33,064 nt of DNA from Desulfobacterales bacterium. GTDB taxonomy: Bacteria > Desulfobacterota > Desulfobacteria > Desulfobacterales > JALSRD01. Location of the stretch: contig JALSRD010000101.1 of the NCBI GenBank assembly GCA_026984935.1, positions 1-33,064 on the forward strand. Reading direction: 5' to 3'. A program made the position numbers and the translations under genes. The notes beneath the pieces are model-generated. The model made no database searches. It was not told where the DNA came from and saw only the letters and a list, made by a program, of their open reading frames with translations. Each line of letters begins with the position of its first letter. The first letter of the stretch is position 1. Positions 190 to 8,545 of this stretch are shown piece after piece.

Positions 190-1017
190 TCAACCCTTCA
201 GCACATCGATCATGCTGTACACTCGGCCCCGGATGCCGGCCGCGGCTTTGGCCGCCAGAAAGGCCGCGGCATCCAGCGTGCCGTCGGCATAGATGTCACG
301 GCCGTTGACATTGTGCCGGAACTCGAACAGCACGCTGCCATCCGCCGAGCGCAGGCGGTAGGTATGCCAGCCGTGCCCTGCCAGGTGCTCCGCCGGCACG
401 CCCCAGATGTTTCGCTGCCTTTCAGGATCCCTTTCCTTCTGAATCTGGGATACGGCGAAATCGAGACCCAGGCGGTTGAAGTAGGTGACCATGGCCTTGG
501 CCGTTCCGCTGGTATCGGCCTTTCCCTGTTGGTGGCTTTCCCGGATTTCGAGCGTATAGCCCTTGAAAAGGCCGGGAAAGTTGTCGGCGGCAAAGGCCAT
601 CATGGCCTGGAAACCCACGATCTGCTTGGCCATGTTGGGCGCAATGACGGCCGGCACCGCAGAGGCGGCAACGGTGTCGTTCAGTTTGCGCCGGTCGCCG
701 CCGGTGGTGCCCATCACGAAGGGCAGGCCCTTTTCGCAGAAAAAGGCCGCGTTGTCATTGACGGCCGAGGGGTGGGTGAAGTCGACGACCAGCACCGGCC
801 CGAACTTTTGCTTGATTTTTGCGACAGCCTCCCCGCGGTGGTTCGGCCGCACCAGTTCGAACGTCACGCCGTCGATATCGTGGGTGGCGGCGGAGATCTC
901 CGGGCCTGTCAGGACCATCGGCAGGACCTCGAAACGCTCGTCGGAAAGGGCATGACGGGCCACGGTAGCGGCCATGCTGCCCGGTATGCCGCTGATCATC
1001 AGGCGTATTTTTTTCAT
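190..1017 (-). CDS. dapB: 4-hydroxy-tetrahydrodipicolinate reductase, plant type
   Basis: A 275-aa cytoplasmic enzyme that reduces hydroxy-tetrahydrodipicolinate with NAD(P)H in the diaminopimelate/lysine pathway, supplying peptidoglycan precursor. The N-terminal nucleotide-binding segment is near residues 5-16. Two stretches match the plant-type subfamily (TIGR02130) rather than the E. coli type: MGTTGGDR at 102-109, and SHQQGKADTSGTAK at 161-174, where E. coli-type enzymes have a HHRxKxDAPSGTA motif. The C-terminal half (RHNVNGRDIYADGT, then VYSMIDVL near the end) also resembles my memory of the Arabidopsis enzyme. The start is supported by GGAGG (complement of 1024-1028) six bases upstream. 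It is the last gene of the plsB, murU-amgK, dapB operon, 27 bp behind its neighbour. Confidence 0.93.
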   Translation of the reverse strand: MKKIRLMISGIPGSMAATVARHALSDERFEVLPMVLTGPEISAATHDIDGVTFELVRPNHRGEAVAKIKQKFGPVLVVDFTHPSAVNDNAAFFCEKGLPFVMGTTGGDRRKLNDTVAASAVPAVIAPNMAKQIVGFQAMMAFAADNFPGLFKGYTLEIRESHQQGKADTSGTAKAMVTYFNRLGLDFAVSQIQKERDPERQRNIWGVPAEHLAGHGWHTYRLRSADGSVLFEFRHNVNGRDIYADGTLDAAAFLAAKAAAGIRGRVYSMIDVLKG

Positions 1018-1044
1018 TTTGCACCTCCGTTGGCTGCAGGGTTT

Positions 1045-2733
1045 TTATAAAGCTATGCGGTTGACGAGCTTGGCCAGCCGGGGCAGTGGATTGGGCGCCA
1101 GTGCACCCAGGCGCTGTTGCAGGCCCTTTACGGCCGCCGGGATGTGGCGTGCAAAGCCGGTTTTGCCCTTTACGCGGCTCAAAAAGGCGAAAGCGCCCAG
1201 CATCTGCAGATTCCTGGCCAGTGCACAAAAGGTGTAGCTTTGACCGAAGCGCACGGGATCGATGCCTGCCACCTCCTCCAGGCGGCGGACGGCATGGGAG
1301 AGCAGCGCCTGCTGCAGGCCGGGCGACAGGTCTACGTAGGGATCGATGAGCAGCGATGCCAGGTCGTACTGCAGCGGCCCCAGGCGGCCGGCCTGAAAGT
1401 CGATGAAAAAATAGTTCCCGTTGCGGTGCATGATGTTGCGCGACTGCATGTCCCGGTGCATGAATCCGGTGTGCGCAAATTCCAGTGCACCGTCGGCCAG
1501 GGCTTCGAATTCACGCCGCAGGCTTTCAAAATCCACCGACCATCCCATCCAGGCATTTAAAAAGGCCTCGGTGAAGTAGCGGCATTCCCGTTCCAGGATC
1601 AGGGCACGATCGTATGCCGGACCCTGAAAGGCCCAGGCCGGATCGAAGCCCCGGGCCCCGTTGAGGTTGAGGTCGATGGCCTGGTCGACGATGCGGCGGT
1701 AGATGGCAGCCACCGTCCGCGCACTGGCACACTGCCGGACCACCTGCTGCAGGTGCGTGTCGCCTAGATCCTCGCACAGCACCTGACCGGCAAAGGTGTC
1801 GGCGGCATAGATGCGGGGGACCGCGATGCCGCGACGGTGCAGATGGGTGCCGATTTTTACGAAGGCGGCGGCTTCCGACGGACGTTGCTGGGCGCAGATG
1901 CCGTGATCGACGCATATCAGACTGTGATTGGCGGATGCCAGGCGGTACCAGCGCCGGTCCGACCCGTCTCCAGAGAGCATTATGCGCCGCACGGGGGTCT
2001 GCGGAAGATACCCAAAAGCCTTTTTAAAGGCTTTTGGCACCAGGGCCTCATAAACCGCCCGGCGATACCTTGCGGGGGTGCCGATGTCCGTCCAGCGTGG
2101 GTTTTCTACCATGTAAGCGCGGATCCGCCGTCCGGCTGCAAGCAACCGGCGGTAAGCGTCGATGCTGCTGGAAAACCGCCCGGCGGGGATCCAGTCGAGC
2201 ACTTGGGGATCGAGCACCTGAATGCCGGTAAAGGCCAGGTAGGCCAGCGCCGGGTCGTGCTGCAGCACAGGTTGGCTGCAGAAATCCACCACGTGCCGCC
2301 GGTTGCGGACCAGCACCCGGTTGAAGGCCGGGCAGTCGTGCATCACCAGCGTAACCGGTTGGCGGTGCTGCAGGTGGAAGCGGTAAACACGGCTCAGATC
2401 GATATCGGTCAGGATGTCGGCGTTGATTACCATGAAGGGGCGCGCCCCGAAAAAGTCAGCGGCGTTTTTAATGGCGCCGCCTGTTCCCAGGATCGCCGGT
2501 TCCCGCCGGGTTTGCACCGGAATGCCGAACCGCCGCCGGCGGATGAAGGCTTCGATCTGGCCGGACAGGTGATGGGTGTTGACCATGACCGCCGTGCAGC
2601 CGGCCTTTTCCAGTTGTTGGATGGTGATCTCCAGCAGTGTGCGGCCGGCGACGGTAAACAGCGGTTTGGGAACATGCCGCGTGTACGGCTGAAGGCGCTT
2701 TCCGAAGCCGGCGGCTAAAATGAGCGCTTTCAT
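1045..2733 (-). CDS. Fused N-acetylmuramate-1-phosphate uridylyltransferase / anomeric MurNAc (GlcNAc) kinase (MurU-AmgK type)
   Basis: A 562-aa two-domain protein. Residues 1 to about 230 are a sugar-phosphate nucleotidyltransferase: LAAGFGKRLQPYT at 6-18, PKPL at 22-25, GTGGAI at 83-88 and the metal-site NADILTD at 104-110. Residues about 245-562 are an APH-fold kinase: catalytic loop HRDMQSRN at 426-433, metal-binding DFQ at 445-447 and QYDLASLL at 455-462. In Pseudomonas the equivalent MurU and AmgK are separate neighbouring genes that turn free MurNAc into MurNAc-1-phosphate and then UDP-MurNAc, bypassing de novo synthesis. Here one chain has both in the order MurU then AmgK. The gap to plsB upstream is 24 bp and a GGAAG sits before the ATG. 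Substrate specificity is inferred; other sugars (GlcNAc) are possible. NamZ nearby supports MurNAc. Confidence 0.82.
   Translation of the reverse strand: MKALILAAGFGKRLQPYTRHVPKPLFTVAGRTLLEITIQQLEKAGCTAVMVNTHHLSGQIEAFIRRRRFGIPVQTRREPAILGTGGAIKNAADFFGARPFMVINADILTDIDLSRVYRFHLQHRQPVTLVMHDCPAFNRVLVRNRRHVVDFCSQPVLQHDPALAYLAFTGIQVLDPQVLDWIPAGRFSSSIDAYRRLLAAGRRIRAYMVENPRWTDIGTPARYRRAVYEALVPKAFKKAFGYLPQTPVRRIMLSGDGSDRRWYRLASANHSLICVDHGICAQQRPSEAAAFVKIGTHLHRRGIAVPRIYAADTFAGQVLCEDLGDTHLQQVVRQCASARTVAAIYRRIVDQAIDLNLNGARGFDPAWAFQGPAYDRALILERECRYFTEAFLNAWMGWSVDFESLRREFEALADGALEFAHTGFMHRDMQSRNIMHRNGNYFFIDFQAGRLGPLQYDLASLLIDPYVDLSPGLQQALLSHAVRRLEEVAGIDPVRFGQSYTFCALARNLQMLGAFAFLSRVKGKTGFARHIPAAVKGLQQRLGALAPNPLPRLAKLVNRIAL
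2012..2037. repeat. Perfect inverted repeat at the MurU/AmgK domain joint
   Basis: Two perfect 12-base arms (CCAAAAGCCTTT and AAAGGCTTTTGG) are separated by TT. It encodes residues P233-G241 of the fused protein, exactly between the two domains. It lies inside the reading frame, which stays open across it. On RNA it would form a strong hairpin of terminator-like shape, but no long T run follows. Confidence 0.8.
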
Positions 2734-2757
2734 CGGGTACTTCCGGCACCTTTCGTA

Positions 2758-5451
2758 TCAGGATAAAAGCTGCAGGTAGCGTTGAATTTTCTGGTTGTAA
2801 TAGGCGATTTTTTCCGCATCGTTTGAGCTGGTGATGCCGTGGGCGTGGAAGTAGCTGGCGGCGTTTTCAAAATAGATCTTGGATAAAGCTTCCGGCCGCT
2901 GGATCTCGCCGCGTTTGTATAACTGGTTTCCGCGCGCCTGGATTTTCTTGATATTGATCCCTCCCGATGCATGTTTGGTTTTCCTGCGGCTGATGGCACC
3001 CAGAGCAACCCAGTAGGCTTCGAAATAGGTTTTCAGGAAGCCGGCCAGCAGGCGCAGCTTGCGCAGGCCGGCAGAGCTCAGGCTGTAGGTATCCGGCAGT
3101 GCCGGGTGGGGTGCCAGGATACTGTCGTCGATGAAAGCTTTGAGTGTCTTGCGCACGAACTGTTCGGGTGTCTTTTCCACATCATAGGCGAAATCGTTTT
3201 TGAAGAATTCCTCCAGAAACGTGTACCCGGCGTGCAGATCGGACGACGCGAAGTGGAAGGCCTCTTTTTCGAGAATTGCCAGCGCCGTGAACGCCGCGGG
3301 TATGAACAAGGCCACACAATTGTTTTTATAGTACTCCAGGAGAGCGCGCTTGTTTTCGACAATCCGGTAGGCGCTGTCGTCCGGTGGCGGTTTGGCGTTG
3401 TCCACAGCGCATTCGATGAATTTTCGCTGGATGTAGGCATCGATGACGCTTTGCGCGGCGCGCTCGGGGTCCATACGCAGCGTATCCGCCAGTGAAGCGC
3501 CACGCGCCTTGAGATATCTCAAGTAGGTTGCCAGGTCTTCCATCAGGCTGCTGCGGCTGAAATGGGGACGCGGCATGTTCAGCATGGCGGCGGCCACCAG
3601 GGCATGGGCCGTGACCACGGTCACGTTGTTGATGGCATTGATGACCCGGTAGCCGATGTTGCGCACCAGGGCATTTTGCTCCTTGGTGCTCATCTGGTCG
3701 AAGGGCTTGCTGCTTTGCGCCAGAATAGACTGCAGGCTGACGGGCTGGTGAAAGCGGATATAGATCCGGCCGTAGCGTTTTTTCAGGACCTTACGGGCCT
3801 TGATGACCTGGCGCATGCTTTCGGGTTCTTTTTTCCCGCCCTCCAGTTCGCGAAGGTAGGCGCTTTCTTCCAGCACGCGGTCGTAGCCCACGAAGATGGG
3901 GGCAAAGATCATGTCTTCGCAGGCGCCGTTTTTATAGGCGTTGATCAAGATGGAAAGCAGTCCGAGTTTGGGCAAAATGAGCTTGCCGGTGCGGCTGCGG
4001 CCGCCTTCGATAAAAAATTCGATGTTGAAGCCCTCTTCCAGCAGGCTGTGCATGTAGGCGGCGAACACCCGTGAGTATAAGACGGCGCCCCGGAAAGACC
4101 TGCGGATGAAAAAGGCGCCGCCGGCACGGAAAATGGGCCCCATAGGCCAGAAAGAGAGATTCTTGCCGGCGGCGATATGCGGGCAGGGCATGTTGTGGTT
4201 GTGAAAAACATAGGAGAGGATCAGGTAATCGATGTGGCTCTTGTGGCAGGGGATCAGAACCAGCGGTCCATGCTGGGAGGCGGCTTTGACACGGTCGAGG
4301 CCCTCGATGTTGACGCTGACGCCCTCGAACATCAGGTTGATGATCCAGCCCACGGCATTGGCCGCCACATCGATGAAAGCCGGGTTGTAGCGGGCGGCGA
4401 TTTCGTCCACATAGGCGGCCGCTTTCTTGCGTACTTTCTCGATGGGGGTCTGGCGGTTTTCAGCATGCTGGGCGATAAAATCCGCCAGCGGTCGGCTGGT
4501 CAGGATACGTTCCTTACGTTCCCACCCCGATTTGAGCACCGGCCCGGTAATGCTGCGGCGGTGGCGGTTGAGACGCCTCAGCACCCGGTTTCTCAGTGCC
4601 TGGGCGATATCGGCGGTGCTCTTCTCCTGGCCGGCTTCCGAGGCAAGGAATGCCTGGATGTTCAGCGGTTCGGCGATTTCGACAAAGACGCGGCCCGGAT
4701 TTTTAAACATGATGGCCACGCGCCTGAGTTTTCCGGGCCTCAGGCTGCTGCCGAAAATGGCATCCAGCAGATTCATGCGCGACCGTGGCGGCTTGTTGGT
4801 GAAAAACATCAGCAGCGGCACCAGGTAAACCGGGCGCTGCACGGCCGCCTGCAGCCGAACCAGGTATTCGGCCGGATCCTGCTGGGATTTGACAAAACGC
4901 CGGTAGATGCCCCCTTTTTCACCCAGTGCAAAAAACGCGGCGCGGTTGCTGAGCAGCGCCTCGCGGATGTATCCGGAGGCATAAGGATGCGGCAGTTTGA
5001 AATGTCTCAGGAAATAATAGCCCTGCGACAGGATAATGCGCAGCAGTCGCGACACCGGCTGCAGCATGATGAAGCGGAGATTGAGGCCGATTTCAGGGCC
5101 GGGCAGGCCTTTTTGCGGAAAACGGCTGTGGCAGAAAAAAAATTCGAAGTAGCTTTTGAACTTGGTGGTATAGACGATGATGGCATCTTCCGGCAGCGCC
5201 TTGACGATGCGGATCTGCTTTTCCTCTAGAGTGATGCCGGAGTAAAAAAGGCGCAGCAGCCAGGAGGTCAGAAAGCCGGTGCGCTCCGGCAGGCGGCAGG
5301 AAAAGTAATAGCGTTTGCCTTTGAGAAGCCTCAGCGTAAGACGCCGCAGCCGGTGCTTAAACGATTTCAGGAGTTTTTCTGTCATGGCAAAAGCGGCGTC
5401 GGACCCACCGGTATCGGGTGCCAGATTGCAGGAAAAGGTGTGTTGGCGCAT
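2758..5451 (-). CDS. plsB: Glycerol-3-phosphate 1-O-acyltransferase (PlsB family)
   Basis: An 897-aa membrane-associated enzyme that acylates sn-glycerol-3-phosphate at position 1, the first step of phospholipid synthesis. Acyltransferase signatures are clear: HKSHID at 403-408 (HX4D catalytic motif), the FRAGGAFFIRRSF block near 441-453 (glycerol-3-phosphate contact region) and EGGRSRTGK at 482-490. The protein is about 90 residues longer than E. coli PlsB (807 aa). The start is uncertain: the upstream ATG at 5451 has only a weak AGG, and an in-frame ATG at 5385 (MTEKLLKS...) gives a more typical N-terminus but also lacks a ribosome binding site. It heads the minus-strand operon with murU-amgK and dapB. 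Confidence 0.93.
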   Translation of the reverse strand: MRQHTFSCNLAPDTGGSDAAFAMTEKLLKSFKHRLRRLTLRLLKGKRYYFSCRLPERTGFLTSWLLRLFYSGITLEEKQIRIVKALPEDAIIVYTTKFKSYFEFFFCHSRFPQKGLPGPEIGLNLRFIMLQPVSRLLRIILSQGYYFLRHFKLPHPYASGYIREALLSNRAAFFALGEKGGIYRRFVKSQQDPAEYLVRLQAAVQRPVYLVPLLMFFTNKPPRSRMNLLDAIFGSSLRPGKLRRVAIMFKNPGRVFVEIAEPLNIQAFLASEAGQEKSTADIAQALRNRVLRRLNRHRRSITGPVLKSGWERKERILTSRPLADFIAQHAENRQTPIEKVRKKAAAYVDEIAARYNPAFIDVAANAVGWIINLMFEGVSVNIEGLDRVKAASQHGPLVLIPCHKSHIDYLILSYVFHNHNMPCPHIAAGKNLSFWPMGPIFRAGGAFFIRRSFRGAVLYSRVFAAYMHSLLEEGFNIEFFIEGGRSRTGKLILPKLGLLSILINAYKNGACEDMIFAPIFVGYDRVLEESAYLRELEGGKKEPESMRQVIKARKVLKKRYGRIYIRFHQPVSLQSILAQSSKPFDQMSTKEQNALVRNIGYRVINAINNVTVVTAHALVAAAMLNMPRPHFSRSSLMEDLATYLRYLKARGASLADTLRMDPERAAQSVIDAYIQRKFIECAVDNAKPPPDDSAYRIVENKRALLEYYKNNCVALFIPAAFTALAILEKEAFHFASSDLHAGYTFLEEFFKNDFAYDVEKTPEQFVRKTLKAFIDDSILAPHPALPDTYSLSSAGLRKLRLLAGFLKTYFEAYWVALGAISRRKTKHASGGINIKKIQARGNQLYKRGEIQRPEALSKIYFENAASYFHAHGITSSNDAEKIAYYNQKIQRYLQLLS

Positions 5452-6015
5452 GCCTGGAAAACGCGACAGAGGCTAACAGACCCCATCGGCAATTGCAACC
5501 TGAAAGTCGAAGGCCGCCGGCGGCCATACCCTCTGCAGTTGGGAGCAAAAGCGCCGGGGCAGAAAGGTTTTCTGAGCCGCGCCGCGGCCTGCGAAACAAC
5601 CCATGGGAATTGGCGCCTGCGGACATTTTCGTGGCATCCGGACAAGATAGCCGGGGTGCGGTTAATCCCGATTTTTTAGCTTGCGTTGCGCCAGATGATG
5701 TGGTATTGCCTCAAAAAATAAAATTCTGCTCTGGTAAGGTTGACCGGCCGCGTAAAAGACCCTTGTAAGACGTTCTGACGACGTTCCAATTTGGGGAAGA
5801 CGAGAAATCAGACCGCAGCACCAGAGGGCACTTCGAGGTTTGGATTTTGAGTCGGGTACCGAAATCGGGCGCCGGGGGGATGTCTGCCGGCGGTGTACGA
5901 CTGATGTGGTGCAAAGGGGCGGCTTCCGCCCGTCCGGTTCTGATCGCGTTTAGGTGTGAATCTACATTTCCTTAAGGATTATAACGCGTTAATAGTTAAA
6001 GGAGGATGATTTTTT
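5452..6015. other. 564-bp non-coding gap between divergent plsB and a small membrane gene
   Basis: Open frames here are short and lack protein-like composition or ribosome binding sites, so I call no gene. The gap holds a 14-nt self-complementary stretch, GGCCGCCGGCGGCC at 5512-5525. Just before the next gene it holds two small palindromes, CCTTAAGG at about 5970-5977 and TAACGCGTTA at 5982-5991. Promoters for both flanking genes must lie here, but none matches consensus well enough to place. Confidence 0.5.
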
Positions 6016-6300
6016 ATGAAAACGTTAATTGGTGGTGCGGTGGCAGCAGTTCTGGGTTTGATCGGTGTTTCGGTGTGGTTCAGCGAGTTCTTGCAGGTTC
6101 TGGCCGGCGTGGTTCCCATTATGCTGCTGCTCGGCGGCGGCCTGGCCCTTTATCTGGGTTTTGACGAACTTAAAGACACCTGGAAAAAGGACGAAGCACC
6201 CGCGGCAAACCCTGTTGACACAGATGACAGCGAAAAATATAAACAGGAAATCGACGACCTGAAAAAAGAAATCGAAACCCTGAAGGCCGAAAAAGCCTAA
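6016..6300 (+). CDS. Small membrane protein with C-terminal coiled coil, function unknown
   Basis: A 94-aa protein with two hydrophobic helices (about 4-22 and 27-47) separated by a short polar turn. A Pro/Ala/Asp-rich linker follows, then a charged heptad-like tail (about 70-94, repeats of DDLKKEIETLKAE type) that should form a coiled coil. The likely arrangement is a helical hairpin in the inner membrane with a cytoplasmic coil. A strong AAAGGAGG ends at 6005, ten bases before the ATG, and an intrinsic terminator lies at 6428-6456, so it looks like a well-expressed single-gene unit. I do not recognise the family. Confidence 0.82.
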   Translation: MKTLIGGAVAAVLGLIGVSVWFSEFLQVLAGVVPIMLLLGGGLALYLGFDELKDTWKKDEAPAANPVDTDDSEKYKQEIDDLKKEIETLKAEKA

Positions 6301-6397
6301 CCGTATCTGCTTGTTATAGCCCAAAAGTTTATTTGATCCGGAAATAAATCTTCGCCGACGCCGGCGGAGCCGGATGCGTCAGATATAAAGTATACGC

Positions 6398-6415
6398 GCC
6401 CGTGGGCCAACGGGC
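6398..6415 (+). repeat. Small hairpin upstream of the terminator
   Basis: GCCCGT and ACGGGC are perfect 6-bp arms around a six-base loop, 13 bases before the terminator hairpin at 6428. In the 3' untranslated part of the small membrane gene it may protect the transcript end. This is inference. Confidence 0.45.
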
Positions 6416-6427
6416 CTGGAGAAAAGA

Positions 6428-6456
6428 GCCCCAGCTTATTCCAAGCGGGGCTTTTT
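6428..6456 (+). terminator. Rho-independent terminator of the small membrane gene
   Basis: GCCCC pairs with GGGGC, then after one bulged A GCTT pairs with AAGC around the loop ATTCC, followed directly by five T. It is the clearest intrinsic terminator in the window. The A-rich left flank could let it work in reverse for the convergent RNase H gene, whose stop lies at 6475. Confidence 0.87.
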
Positions 6457-6474
6457 CAGTTGGCATAGGCGCTT

Positions 6475-7128
6475 TTACTGTCGCCGGCGAATGGCAGAGG
6501 TGGCCAGCTGATCCGCGCGCTCGTTGTCGTCGATGCCGGCGTGGCCTTTGACCTTGATCAGCCGCAGGTCCCTGAAATCCCGCATCTGGTTTTTAATCTC
6601 CTGTACGAGCTCCTGGTTGCGGCGGGCCTTCCAGCCGAGACTCAGCAGTCCGTGAGCGTAGCTGCTGTCGGTGAAAAGCCTCACCGGAAGATCTTTGCGC
6701 TGTACAGCGGACAAGGCCTGCCGAATGGCTTCCAGCTCGGCGATGTTGTTGGTGGCATGGCCGATGTAGCGGGAGATTTCCCGGACGCGGTCCTGGTAGC
6801 GCAGCACGACACCGATGCCCGCGGGGCCCGGATTGCCGGAAGACGCGCCGTCTGTGTAAATGCAAATGGCGTTGGGCGGTATGTTTTCGGCAGGGCGCTG
6901 TGTGGCCCGCCGGGCCCTTGAAGTTGCGGACGATTTGCCCGCTGCCGCTGCCGCTGCCTCCAGAGGCCGGATATTTGCGGGATTGACCCAGTATTCGTGA
7001 TCCTGTGTGAGCTGGTATTTGATCAACTGCCGGTTGCCGCGTGTCAGGGGACGACCCTGGTCGTCCGTCGCCAGCCAGACCTTGTTCGTTTTGAATTTGC
7101 GGCGTACCCAGTTGATTTTGCGGCTCAA
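6475..7128 (-). CDS. rnhA: Ribonuclease HI with an extra N-terminal module
   Basis: Cleaves the RNA strand of RNA-DNA hybrids. The C-terminal 145 residues are a standard RNase HI: YTDGASSGNPG, NNIAELEAI, FTDSSYA and DNERADQLA supply the four carboxylates (D, E, D, D) in the expected order. Before this is a basic module (start region KINWVRRKF, then KVWLATDDQG and YWVNPANIRPL) joined by an Ala/Arg-rich linker. I chose a TTG start at 7128 because GGAG (complement of 7136-7139) lies seven bases upstream and the conserved-looking text begins there. An upstream ATG at 7302 would give 275 aa, but the added residues look non-coding. The N-terminal module is not the classic hybrid-binding domain as far as I can tell. 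Confidence 0.9.
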   Translation of the reverse strand: MSRKINWVRRKFKTNKVWLATDDQGRPLTRGNRQLIKYQLTQDHEYWVNPANIRPLEAAAAAAGKSSATSRARRATQRPAENIPPNAICIYTDGASSGNPGPAGIGVVLRYQDRVREISRYIGHATNNIAELEAIRQALSAVQRKDLPVRLFTDSSYAHGLLSLGWKARRNQELVQEIKNQMRDFRDLRLIKVKGHAGIDDNERADQLATSAIRRRQ

Positions 7129-7366
7129 TGTATCGCTCCGGATTCCATATGCCCGGTGGTTGGGTTCGGCTTTTTGATGATTTCGCAAAAAGTCCGGATT
7201 TTTCGCTTGCGCAAGCCTGTCCGGCAGCCGTGCAACGTTGCGCCAAATCCCGGGAGCGCTGCCGCTTTGCTCCCCGAACGGCTTGGGGTGGTTAACGCGC
7301 AACGCTGTATGGCGCTTTGACCGAAACGTCTTGAAATCCGCTCGACAACGGATTTCTACGCGTCTG
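7129..7366. other. 238-bp gap between namZ and rnhA with two inverted repeats
   Basis: Both flanking genes are on the minus strand. A perfect 8-bp inverted repeat (GAAATCCG at 7333-7340, CGGATTTC at 7349-7356) lies ten bases after the namZ stop and could be a weak terminator or transcript-end hairpin, although no T run follows. A 12-nt palindrome GCTTGCGCAAGC lies at 7205-7216. No gene is seen unless rnhA starts at 7302. Confidence 0.45.
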
Positions 7367-8545
7367 TCATCTTTCGTAAAGGTAGAAGCGGCGGCCGAGG
7401 TCGAGAAATTTTTTCAATTCAGGCTGCCAGGCGGCCCTCAGGTCGTCCAGACTCGCGTTTTCTTCGATGCAGCGGCGGATTTGGCGGTCGCCGCTGATCA
7501 GGTCGAAGGGCGCTTTTACATGCTCGTATTCATAGGGCGGCGGTTTCCACCGGAACTGCTCCGGCCAACAGGCGTAGACGGCCTTGAGGATCTCGAGTGT
7601 GCTGAAATAGGGGTTGTAACGGCCGGGGTCGGTGACGTGCAGCTGAAAACCGTTGCAGCGGCGGCCGCGCCATTTGTTGAATGTCGGCTCGAAAACGTGT
7701 TCACGCAGCCTAAAACCGTCCGAACTTGCCCCGGCCAGCGATGACCGCAGACGCCGCGGGTCGATGAAAGGGGCGCCGAACAGCTCGAAGGGCTGGCAGG
7801 TGCCGCGGCCTTCGGATACGTTGGTACCTTCCCACAGCACCTGGCCCGGATAGACCATCGCGCTGGCCGGTGTCGGCAGGTTCGGTGACGGGGCGACCCA
7901 TATTCTGCCGGTGTCTTGAAAAAACATGCGCCGCCGCCAGCCCTTCATGGGAATGACTTCCAGACGGCAGTTGATGCCGTAATGCGCATTGAAAAGTCCG
8001 GCCAGTTCGCCGATTGTCAGACCGTGGCGCATGGGGATGGGATAGAGCCCCACGAAAGACGTCAGGTCGTCGTGCAACAGGTTGCCCTCCACACGATGGC
8101 CGCCGATGGGGTTGGGGCGGTCGAGTACCAGAACGCTCTTGCCGAGTCGTTTCGCTGCCTGCATGCAGTAGGCCATGGTGTAGATGAACGTGTAGACGCG
8201 CGTGCCGACATCCTGCAGATCGACAATCAGCGTGTCGATCAGGTCGAACATCGCCTCCGTGGGCCGCCGCACCCGGCCGTAAAGGCTGAATACCGGGATG
8301 CCGAGATGTTCATCTGACAGGTGGCCGGATTCCACCATGTTGTCCTGTTTTTCGGCGTAAAAGCCGTGCTGAGGGGAAAACAGGGCCTTCAGCTGTCCGG
8401 GAAGGCGCTGTGCCAGCAAGTCGCGGGCGTGCCGCAGGCGGCTGTCTACAGAGGCCGGGTTGCACAAAAGGCCCAGGCGTTTGGCGCGTATGGATGACGG
8501 CGGACTGGCGATAAAATTTTCCAGACCGACCCCGATGGCTGTCAT
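7367..8545 (-). CDS. DUF1343 / NamZ-type exo-beta-N-acetylmuramidase (GH171 family)
   Basis: A 392-aa protein of the YbbC/NamZ family, whose characterised B. subtilis member releases MurNAc from the non-reducing end of peptidoglycan fragments. The family blocks are all present: FSPQHGFYAEKQDNM, SLYGRVRRPT, VDLQDVGTRVYTFIYTM, VLDRPNPIGGHRVEG, SFVGLYPIPMRHGLTIGELA and LWEGTNVSEGRGT. Many relatives, as I remember them, have PEHG where this has PQHG, so the catalytic acid may be the nearby Glu. No signal peptide is visible (it begins MTAIGVGLENFIASPP), so it probably acts in the cytosol on imported fragments. The MurU-AmgK fusion 4.6 kb away could use its product. The activity is by homology only. 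Confidence 0.85.
   Translation of the reverse strand: MTAIGVGLENFIASPPSSIRAKRLGLLCNPASVDSRLRHARDLLAQRLPGQLKALFSPQHGFYAEKQDNMVESGHLSDEHLGIPVFSLYGRVRRPTEAMFDLIDTLIVDLQDVGTRVYTFIYTMAYCMQAAKRLGKSVLVLDRPNPIGGHRVEGNLLHDDLTSFVGLYPIPMRHGLTIGELAGLFNAHYGINCRLEVIPMKGWRRRMFFQDTGRIWVAPSPNLPTPASAMVYPGQVLWEGTNVSEGRGTCQPFELFGAPFIDPRRLRSSLAGASSDGFRLREHVFEPTFNKWRGRRCNGFQLHVTDPGRYNPYFSTLEILKAVYACWPEQFRWKPPPYEYEHVKAPFDLISGDRQIRRCIEENASLDDLRAAWQPELKKFLDLGRRFYLYER

Follow-up and report, generated by a model that had tools for sequence, protein, structure and literature searches.

A MurU-AmgK fusion protein of Desulfobacterales, probably a bifunctional enzyme of peptidoglycan-sugar recycling supplied mainly by NamZ

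A single gene in a 33,064-nucleotide stretch of DNA from a Desulfobacterales bacterium (hereafter the window) encodes a MurU-type nucleotidyltransferase joined to an AmgK-type kinase, and the fusion was confirmed as real. We consider it probable that the protein is a bifunctional enzyme of peptidoglycan-sugar recycling that converts MurNAc to UDP-MurNAc, with MurNAc derived mainly from NamZ and not from AnmK and MupP. The gene was located on the minus strand; the plus strand at 1045-2733 contains stop codons. It was the single match to the fusion in the genome, which holds no second copy of the pair and only one other APH match, weak and unrelated. The features of the gene are as follows:

1045..2733, minus strand: MurU-AmgK fusion protein, 562 aa, one uninterrupted chain with an ATG start
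2053..2733, minus strand: nucleotidyltransferase domain of MurU type, spanning residues 1-227 (NTP_transferase in Pfam, 2-227; MurU the top NCBIfam model)
2659..2712, minus strand: nucleotide-binding signature AGFGKRLQPYTRHVPKPL, residues 8-25 (invariant residues, n=18 diverse members)
2002..2052, minus strand: linker, residues 228-244 (the model shows an unbroken helix at 220-240)
1099..2001, minus strand: AmgK-type kinase domain, residues ~245-545 (Pfam APH; NCBIfam AmgK models best; 3csv)
1435..1458, minus strand: catalytic loop HRDMQSRN, residues 426-433 (by conservation)
1393..1401, minus strand: metal-binding DFQ motif, residues 445-447 (by conservation)

The motifs of both halves were intact. 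The MurU half has the fold and motifs of its family, with the signature GxGxR...PKPL and the conserved Asp residues; G9, G11, R13, P22, K23, and L25 were invariant in 18 diverse members. The kinase half likewise combines the APH fold, the HxDxxxxN loop, and the metal-binding Asp of AmgK. Within its catalytic loop, H426, R427, D428, Q430, and N433 were invariant in 13 fusions of the order, and the D, Q, and N of the loop, like the D and Q of the DFQ motif, were invariant in 20 diverse members.

Both halves were assigned by comparison with Pfam, with 18,950 NCBIfam models, and with the sequences of solved structures. In Pfam, both domains exceeded their cut-offs: NTP_transferase at residues 2-227 with 91 bits, and APH at 254-478 with 53.8 bits. 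The best NCBIfam model for the N-terminal half was MurU (NF045761, 134 bits), followed by mannose-1-phosphate guanylyltransferase (103 bits); the C-terminal half scored best against the two AmgK models (NF045759, 76 bits; NF045698, 64 bits), and the next family, Bud32, reached 25 bits. These scores fall far below the equivalog cut-offs, both for MurU (NF045761, 134 bits with a cut-off of 250; NF045697, 74.5 with a cut-off of 370) and for AmgK (NF045759, 76 bits with a cut-off of 550; NF045698, 64 with a cut-off of 500), and thus place the halves in the neighborhood of MurU and AmgK without a formal equivalog call; for the same reason, specificity for MurNAc is inferred from context. Both AmgK models matched all 20 members tested, with AmgK the best family in every case. 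Another model was narrowly ahead of MurU for the N-terminal half of two distant fusions (L161, L188). The best matches among PDB sequences were the MurU chains 4y7t (104 bits) and 8hhd (87), and 3csv was the sole kinase match.

An AlphaFold model built from 13 sequences of the order had a mean pLDDT of 93 and a pTM of 0.90, with a single helix (220-240) joining the two domains. Foldseek returned P. putida MurU (4y7t) as the top match of the model. In VIA-align, 4y7t superposed on residues 1-235 with a Z of 27.6 (rmsd 2.0, 217 residues, 33% identity) and the AmgK-like 3csv on residues 223-562 with a Z of 29.6 (rmsd 2.5, 304 residues). The model thus predicts two domains in a defined arrangement; the arrangement as such would be no sign that MurNAc-1-phosphate is channelled between them. 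The initial annotation, which had placed a MurU-like half (residues 1-230) and an AmgK-like half (245-562) on one chain, is upheld by the Pfam, NCBIfam, PDB, and structure matches, with its domain limits correct to within a few residues. We asked whether a different kinase or nucleotidyltransferase family was a better match for either half of the window protein; none was.

The full-length fusion was found in 27 of 30 Desulfobacterales genomes, the window genome among them; of the other three, one carries an interrupted fusion, another has no more than a distant nucleotidyltransferase, and the third, which is incomplete, has nothing. Relatives in the order align to the fusion from end to end at 40-59% identity, so the fusion is not a product of chance. 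The phylum named at the outset, Desulfobacterota, was correct, and the named relatives are Desulfobacteraceae, Desulfosarcinaceae, and other Desulfobacterales. The fusion is not the rule in that phylum: it holds for Desulfobacterales and a few other lineages, while most other members have murU and amgK as separate neighboring genes, murU first. The separate MurU of the phylum is usually longer at its C-terminus by about 80 residues, which show weak similarity to hexapeptide repeats, and the linker of the order's fusion stands in place of this extension. Other fusions were found in Thermodesulfobacteria (L077, L144, L148, L194), in genomes G045 and G199 together with two Nitrospirota records (L188, L078, L161, L185), and in G184 (L081). 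Those of G045, G199, Thermodesulfobacteria, and Nitrospirota have retained the extra segment between the domains and therefore reach 610-690 aa. One locus (L132) was left out of the fusion count, its MurU part being covered by masked N bases. Open frames of about 650 aa in some families were considered as fusions and rejected; each consists of two adjacent genes that share a reading frame but are separated by a stop codon. Another architecture of the pair is that of Melioribacter (Ignavibacteria; L181, 8953-10374), an AmgK-like kinase with a RapZ C-terminal domain followed by a MurU-like gene. Three further AmgK-like kinases (L198, 4920-6914; L199, 5744-7618; L200, 5484-7259) have a putative 290-330 or so extra N-terminal residues and adjoin a MurU-like gene; the extra part in L199 had no Pfam match.

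In a tree of the kinase domain (n=151), 54 Desulfobacterales fusions and L132 formed one clade (100%), the fusions of Thermodesulfobacteria, Nitrospirota, G045, and G199 formed a second (99%), and the G184 fusion stood apart from both. On thinned sets, each domain required the state to switch three times between split and fused. A single fused clade was rejected on the same kind of sets (p-AU 0.0003 for the kinase, 4e-19 for MurU), in tests chosen after the tree had been viewed and with quick trees throughout; the two halves agree. AmgK and MurU may thus have been fused about three separate times, and fission or transfer may have played a part. Repeated fusion would argue that coupling of the two proteins is favored.

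The surroundings of the fusion in the window form a block (190-8545) with the order DapB, fusion, PlsB-like protein, small coiled-coil-type protein, RNase H, and NamZ:

190..1017, minus strand: DapB, plant-type dihydrodipicolinate reductase (TIGR02130, above cut-off), directly downstream of the fusion across a 27-bp gap
2758..5451, minus strand: gene for a PlsB-like acyltransferase, next to the fusion on its upstream side across a 24-bp gap
6016-6300, strand opposite to the fusion: small coiled-coil-type protein, a conserved member of the block
7367..8545, minus strand: NamZ, exo-beta-N-acetylmuramidase family (formerly DUF1343), 392 aa (Pfam)

Beyond NamZ, on the other strand, lie a ParA-like gene and a 2-oxoacid oxidoreductase gene. 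Across the order, PlsB adjoined the fusion upstream in 51 of 52 loci and DapB adjoined it downstream in 41 of 49. An overlap of four bases between the PlsB and fusion genes is common in Desulfobacterales, which suggests an operon. Of the 39 order loci with enough flank, 32 had NamZ on the strand of the fusion and 3.3-4.8 kb upstream; in the window the distance is 4.6 kb. The window NamZ matches both Pfam domains above cut-off (NamZ_N, 275 bits; NamZ_C, 165 bits), and the family has solved relatives in 4k05 and 4jja. No convincing signal peptide was seen in the NamZ N-termini of these loci, the window copy included, and the protein is thus probably cytosolic. A second kind of NamZ, whose open frame of roughly 680-870 aa includes other sequence fused to it, was also encountered (G108, G068, G035, G086, G177, G201, G218, and others).

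The link between NamZ and the pair extends across the phylum. Among 198 genomes, 135 have AmgK, and NamZ accompanies it in 102 of these; of the 63 that lack AmgK, 11 have NamZ (Fisher p 8e-15, kinship ignored). In 17 genomes of the phylum NamZ and AmgK were no more than 10 kb apart, and in all 17 they shared a strand. NamZ directly adjoins murU-amgK or the fusion in L075, L076, L078, L100, and L188, and in the two Nitrospirota records L161 (with a 4-base overlap) and L185; the surroundings in these lineages differ from those in Desulfobacterales. AmpG adjoins the AmgK-MurU pair in 10 genomes of the phylum, and in G045 and G199 the gene row reads NamZ, fusion, AmpG. The initial proposal, drawn from the fusion, of a single pathway for the two activities is backed by the adjacency of the separate genes throughout the phylum and by the linkage to NamZ and AmpG.

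The likeness to the Pseudomonas pathway, judged by gene content (AnmK, AmpG, NagZ), was partial: the final MurU and AmgK steps are shared, but the route as such is not present, AnmK having no match in the window genome. AmpG (C106) and NagZ (C2) both scored above cut-off there. Of the 198 genomes in the phylum, 20 had AnmK above cut-off; among those with AmgK, it occurred in 7 of 33 without NamZ as compared to 3 of 102 with NamZ (p 0.002, kinship ignored). Such scarcity of AnmK where NamZ is present is what one would expect if MurNAc is supplied by either the one enzyme or the other, and NamZ seems to stand in for AnmK. AmgK was present with both NamZ and AnmK absent in 26 genomes (G036, G053, G059, G063, and 22 others); in some AmgK genomes lacking NamZ and AnmK, AmpG was located directly upstream of murU-amgK. 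The only surveyed genome with AnmK near AmgK was G085 (L191), where the genes lie 2.2 kb apart on opposite strands and may represent a cluster of Pseudomonas type within the phylum. An E. coli-type MurQ route was considered for the order and rejected: no MurQ etherase scored above cut-off in any of the 30 order genomes, which gave weak SIS-domain matches only.

The proposed order of events is as follows: AmpG would import cell-wall fragments, on which NamZ, apparently in the cytosol, and NagZ would act to release free MurNAc, mainly via NamZ. The C-terminal AmgK domain would then use ATP to phosphorylate the anomeric hydroxyl of free MurNAc, and the N-terminal MurU domain would join MurNAc-1-phosphate to UMP from UTP, yielding UDP-MurNAc. 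With flux in this presumed direction, UDP-MurNAc would rejoin cell-wall synthesis downstream of MurA and MurB. On balance, we favor extending this scheme to Thermodesulfobacteriota and some Nitrospirota as a three-enzyme route from NamZ to AmgK to MurU, needing neither AnmK nor MupP, in which AmgK and MurU were fused about three times and one lineage has NamZ and AmpG as immediate neighbors of the fusion. Among the points against this reading are the 26 AmgK genomes that lack both NamZ and AnmK, and a chemical one. Lytic transglycosylases make anhydroMurNAc ends, and NagZ acting on GlcNAc-anhydroMurNAc imported by AmpG would leave anhydroMurNAc, which, to our knowledge, neither NamZ nor AmgK opens. 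Either muramidase-type products would dominate, or NamZ or another enzyme would open the anhydro ring.

Three other explanations of these data were weighed. The two domains may work as described while the NamZ link reflects an old chromosomal block shared within the order and without functional meaning; the whole dapB-fusion-plsB-rnhA-NamZ block is indeed conserved in Desulfobacterales, including genes of unrelated function. We regard this as unlikely, given that elsewhere, in further families as well as in Nitrospirota, NamZ sits right beside murU-amgK amid other genes, and that NamZ and AmgK co-occur phylum-wide even where they are unlinked. A second question is the substrate. The protein might serve salvage of GlcNAc, via GlcNAc-1-phosphate to UDP-GlcNAc, rather than or as much as that of MurNAc. 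The AmgK of Pseudomonas, a MurNAc/GlcNAc kinase by its NCBIfam name, also phosphorylates GlcNAc (PMC5411481), so that GlcNAc is possible as a second substrate of the fusion; NagZ in the window genome releases GlcNAc, and models of the GlmU type match the nucleotidyltransferase half, more weakly than MurU. However, that half is closest to MurU by NCBIfam, PDB sequence, and Foldseek alike, and the neighbor retained in several lineages, NamZ, belongs to a family that releases MurNAc, which leaves GlcNAc salvage a rather poor prospect.

Production of another nucleotide sugar (of mannose, heptose, or glucose type) for lipopolysaccharide or exopolysaccharide would accord with the second place of mannose-1-phosphate guanylyltransferase for the N-terminal half, with the narrow lead of that model in the Nitrospirota fusion L161, and with the glycan genes (GMP/PMI, aminotransferase) elsewhere in the window. 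The C-terminal half, however, shows no affinity to heptose or hexose 1-kinases, AmgK being closest throughout the 20 members, and the genes linked to the fusion or pair are NamZ and AmpG rather than those of glycan clusters; we judge this explanation very improbable. Recycling of MurNAc through NamZ, AmgK, and MurU is the reading that we prefer.

The enzymes themselves are of known kinds; what differs is the fused architecture and the route fed by NamZ. The whole MurU chain of P. putida and P. aeruginosa (4y7t, 8hhd) aligns to residues 1-235 and has the signature and Asp residues in common, but the window protein is fused to a kinase and scores below the equivalog cut-off, and the fusion of the order lacks the hexapeptide-type C-terminal extension frequent in the separate MurU of the phylum. 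AmgK of Pseudomonas and Caulobacter shares the APH fold and the HRD and DFQ motifs, with 3csv as the nearest solved chain, whereas the window kinase is fused behind MurU and scores low on the narrow AmgK models. Compared with the Pseudomonas route (NagZ-AnmK-MupP-AmgK-MurU), the window genome has the final two steps, AmpG, and NagZ in common, but AnmK is absent, NamZ is present and co-inherited, and the final two steps reside on one chain. The NamZ (GH171) of Bacillus subtilis and Bacteroidetes shares both Pfam domains with the window NamZ, which differs in having no evident signal peptide and in its link to AmgK-MurU; B. subtilis NamZ is secreted. The literature searched invariably treats AmgK and MurU as separate proteins and makes no connection between them and NamZ; no description of a natural AmgK-MurU fusion or of a NamZ-AmgK link was found there, which is weak evidence of novelty with few subscription papers included.

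A single gene for AmgK and MurU would be a convenient tool for labelling cell walls with MurNAc probes. If the proposed route is correct, NamZ, known as an enzyme that digests cell walls, would gain a role in recycling as a source of MurNAc, and it would explain how AmgK and MurU work without AnmK. The recycling route would be shorter than that of Pseudomonas, and the UDP-MurNAc shortcut would reach a large group of anaerobes for which the literature searched describes no recycling pathway.
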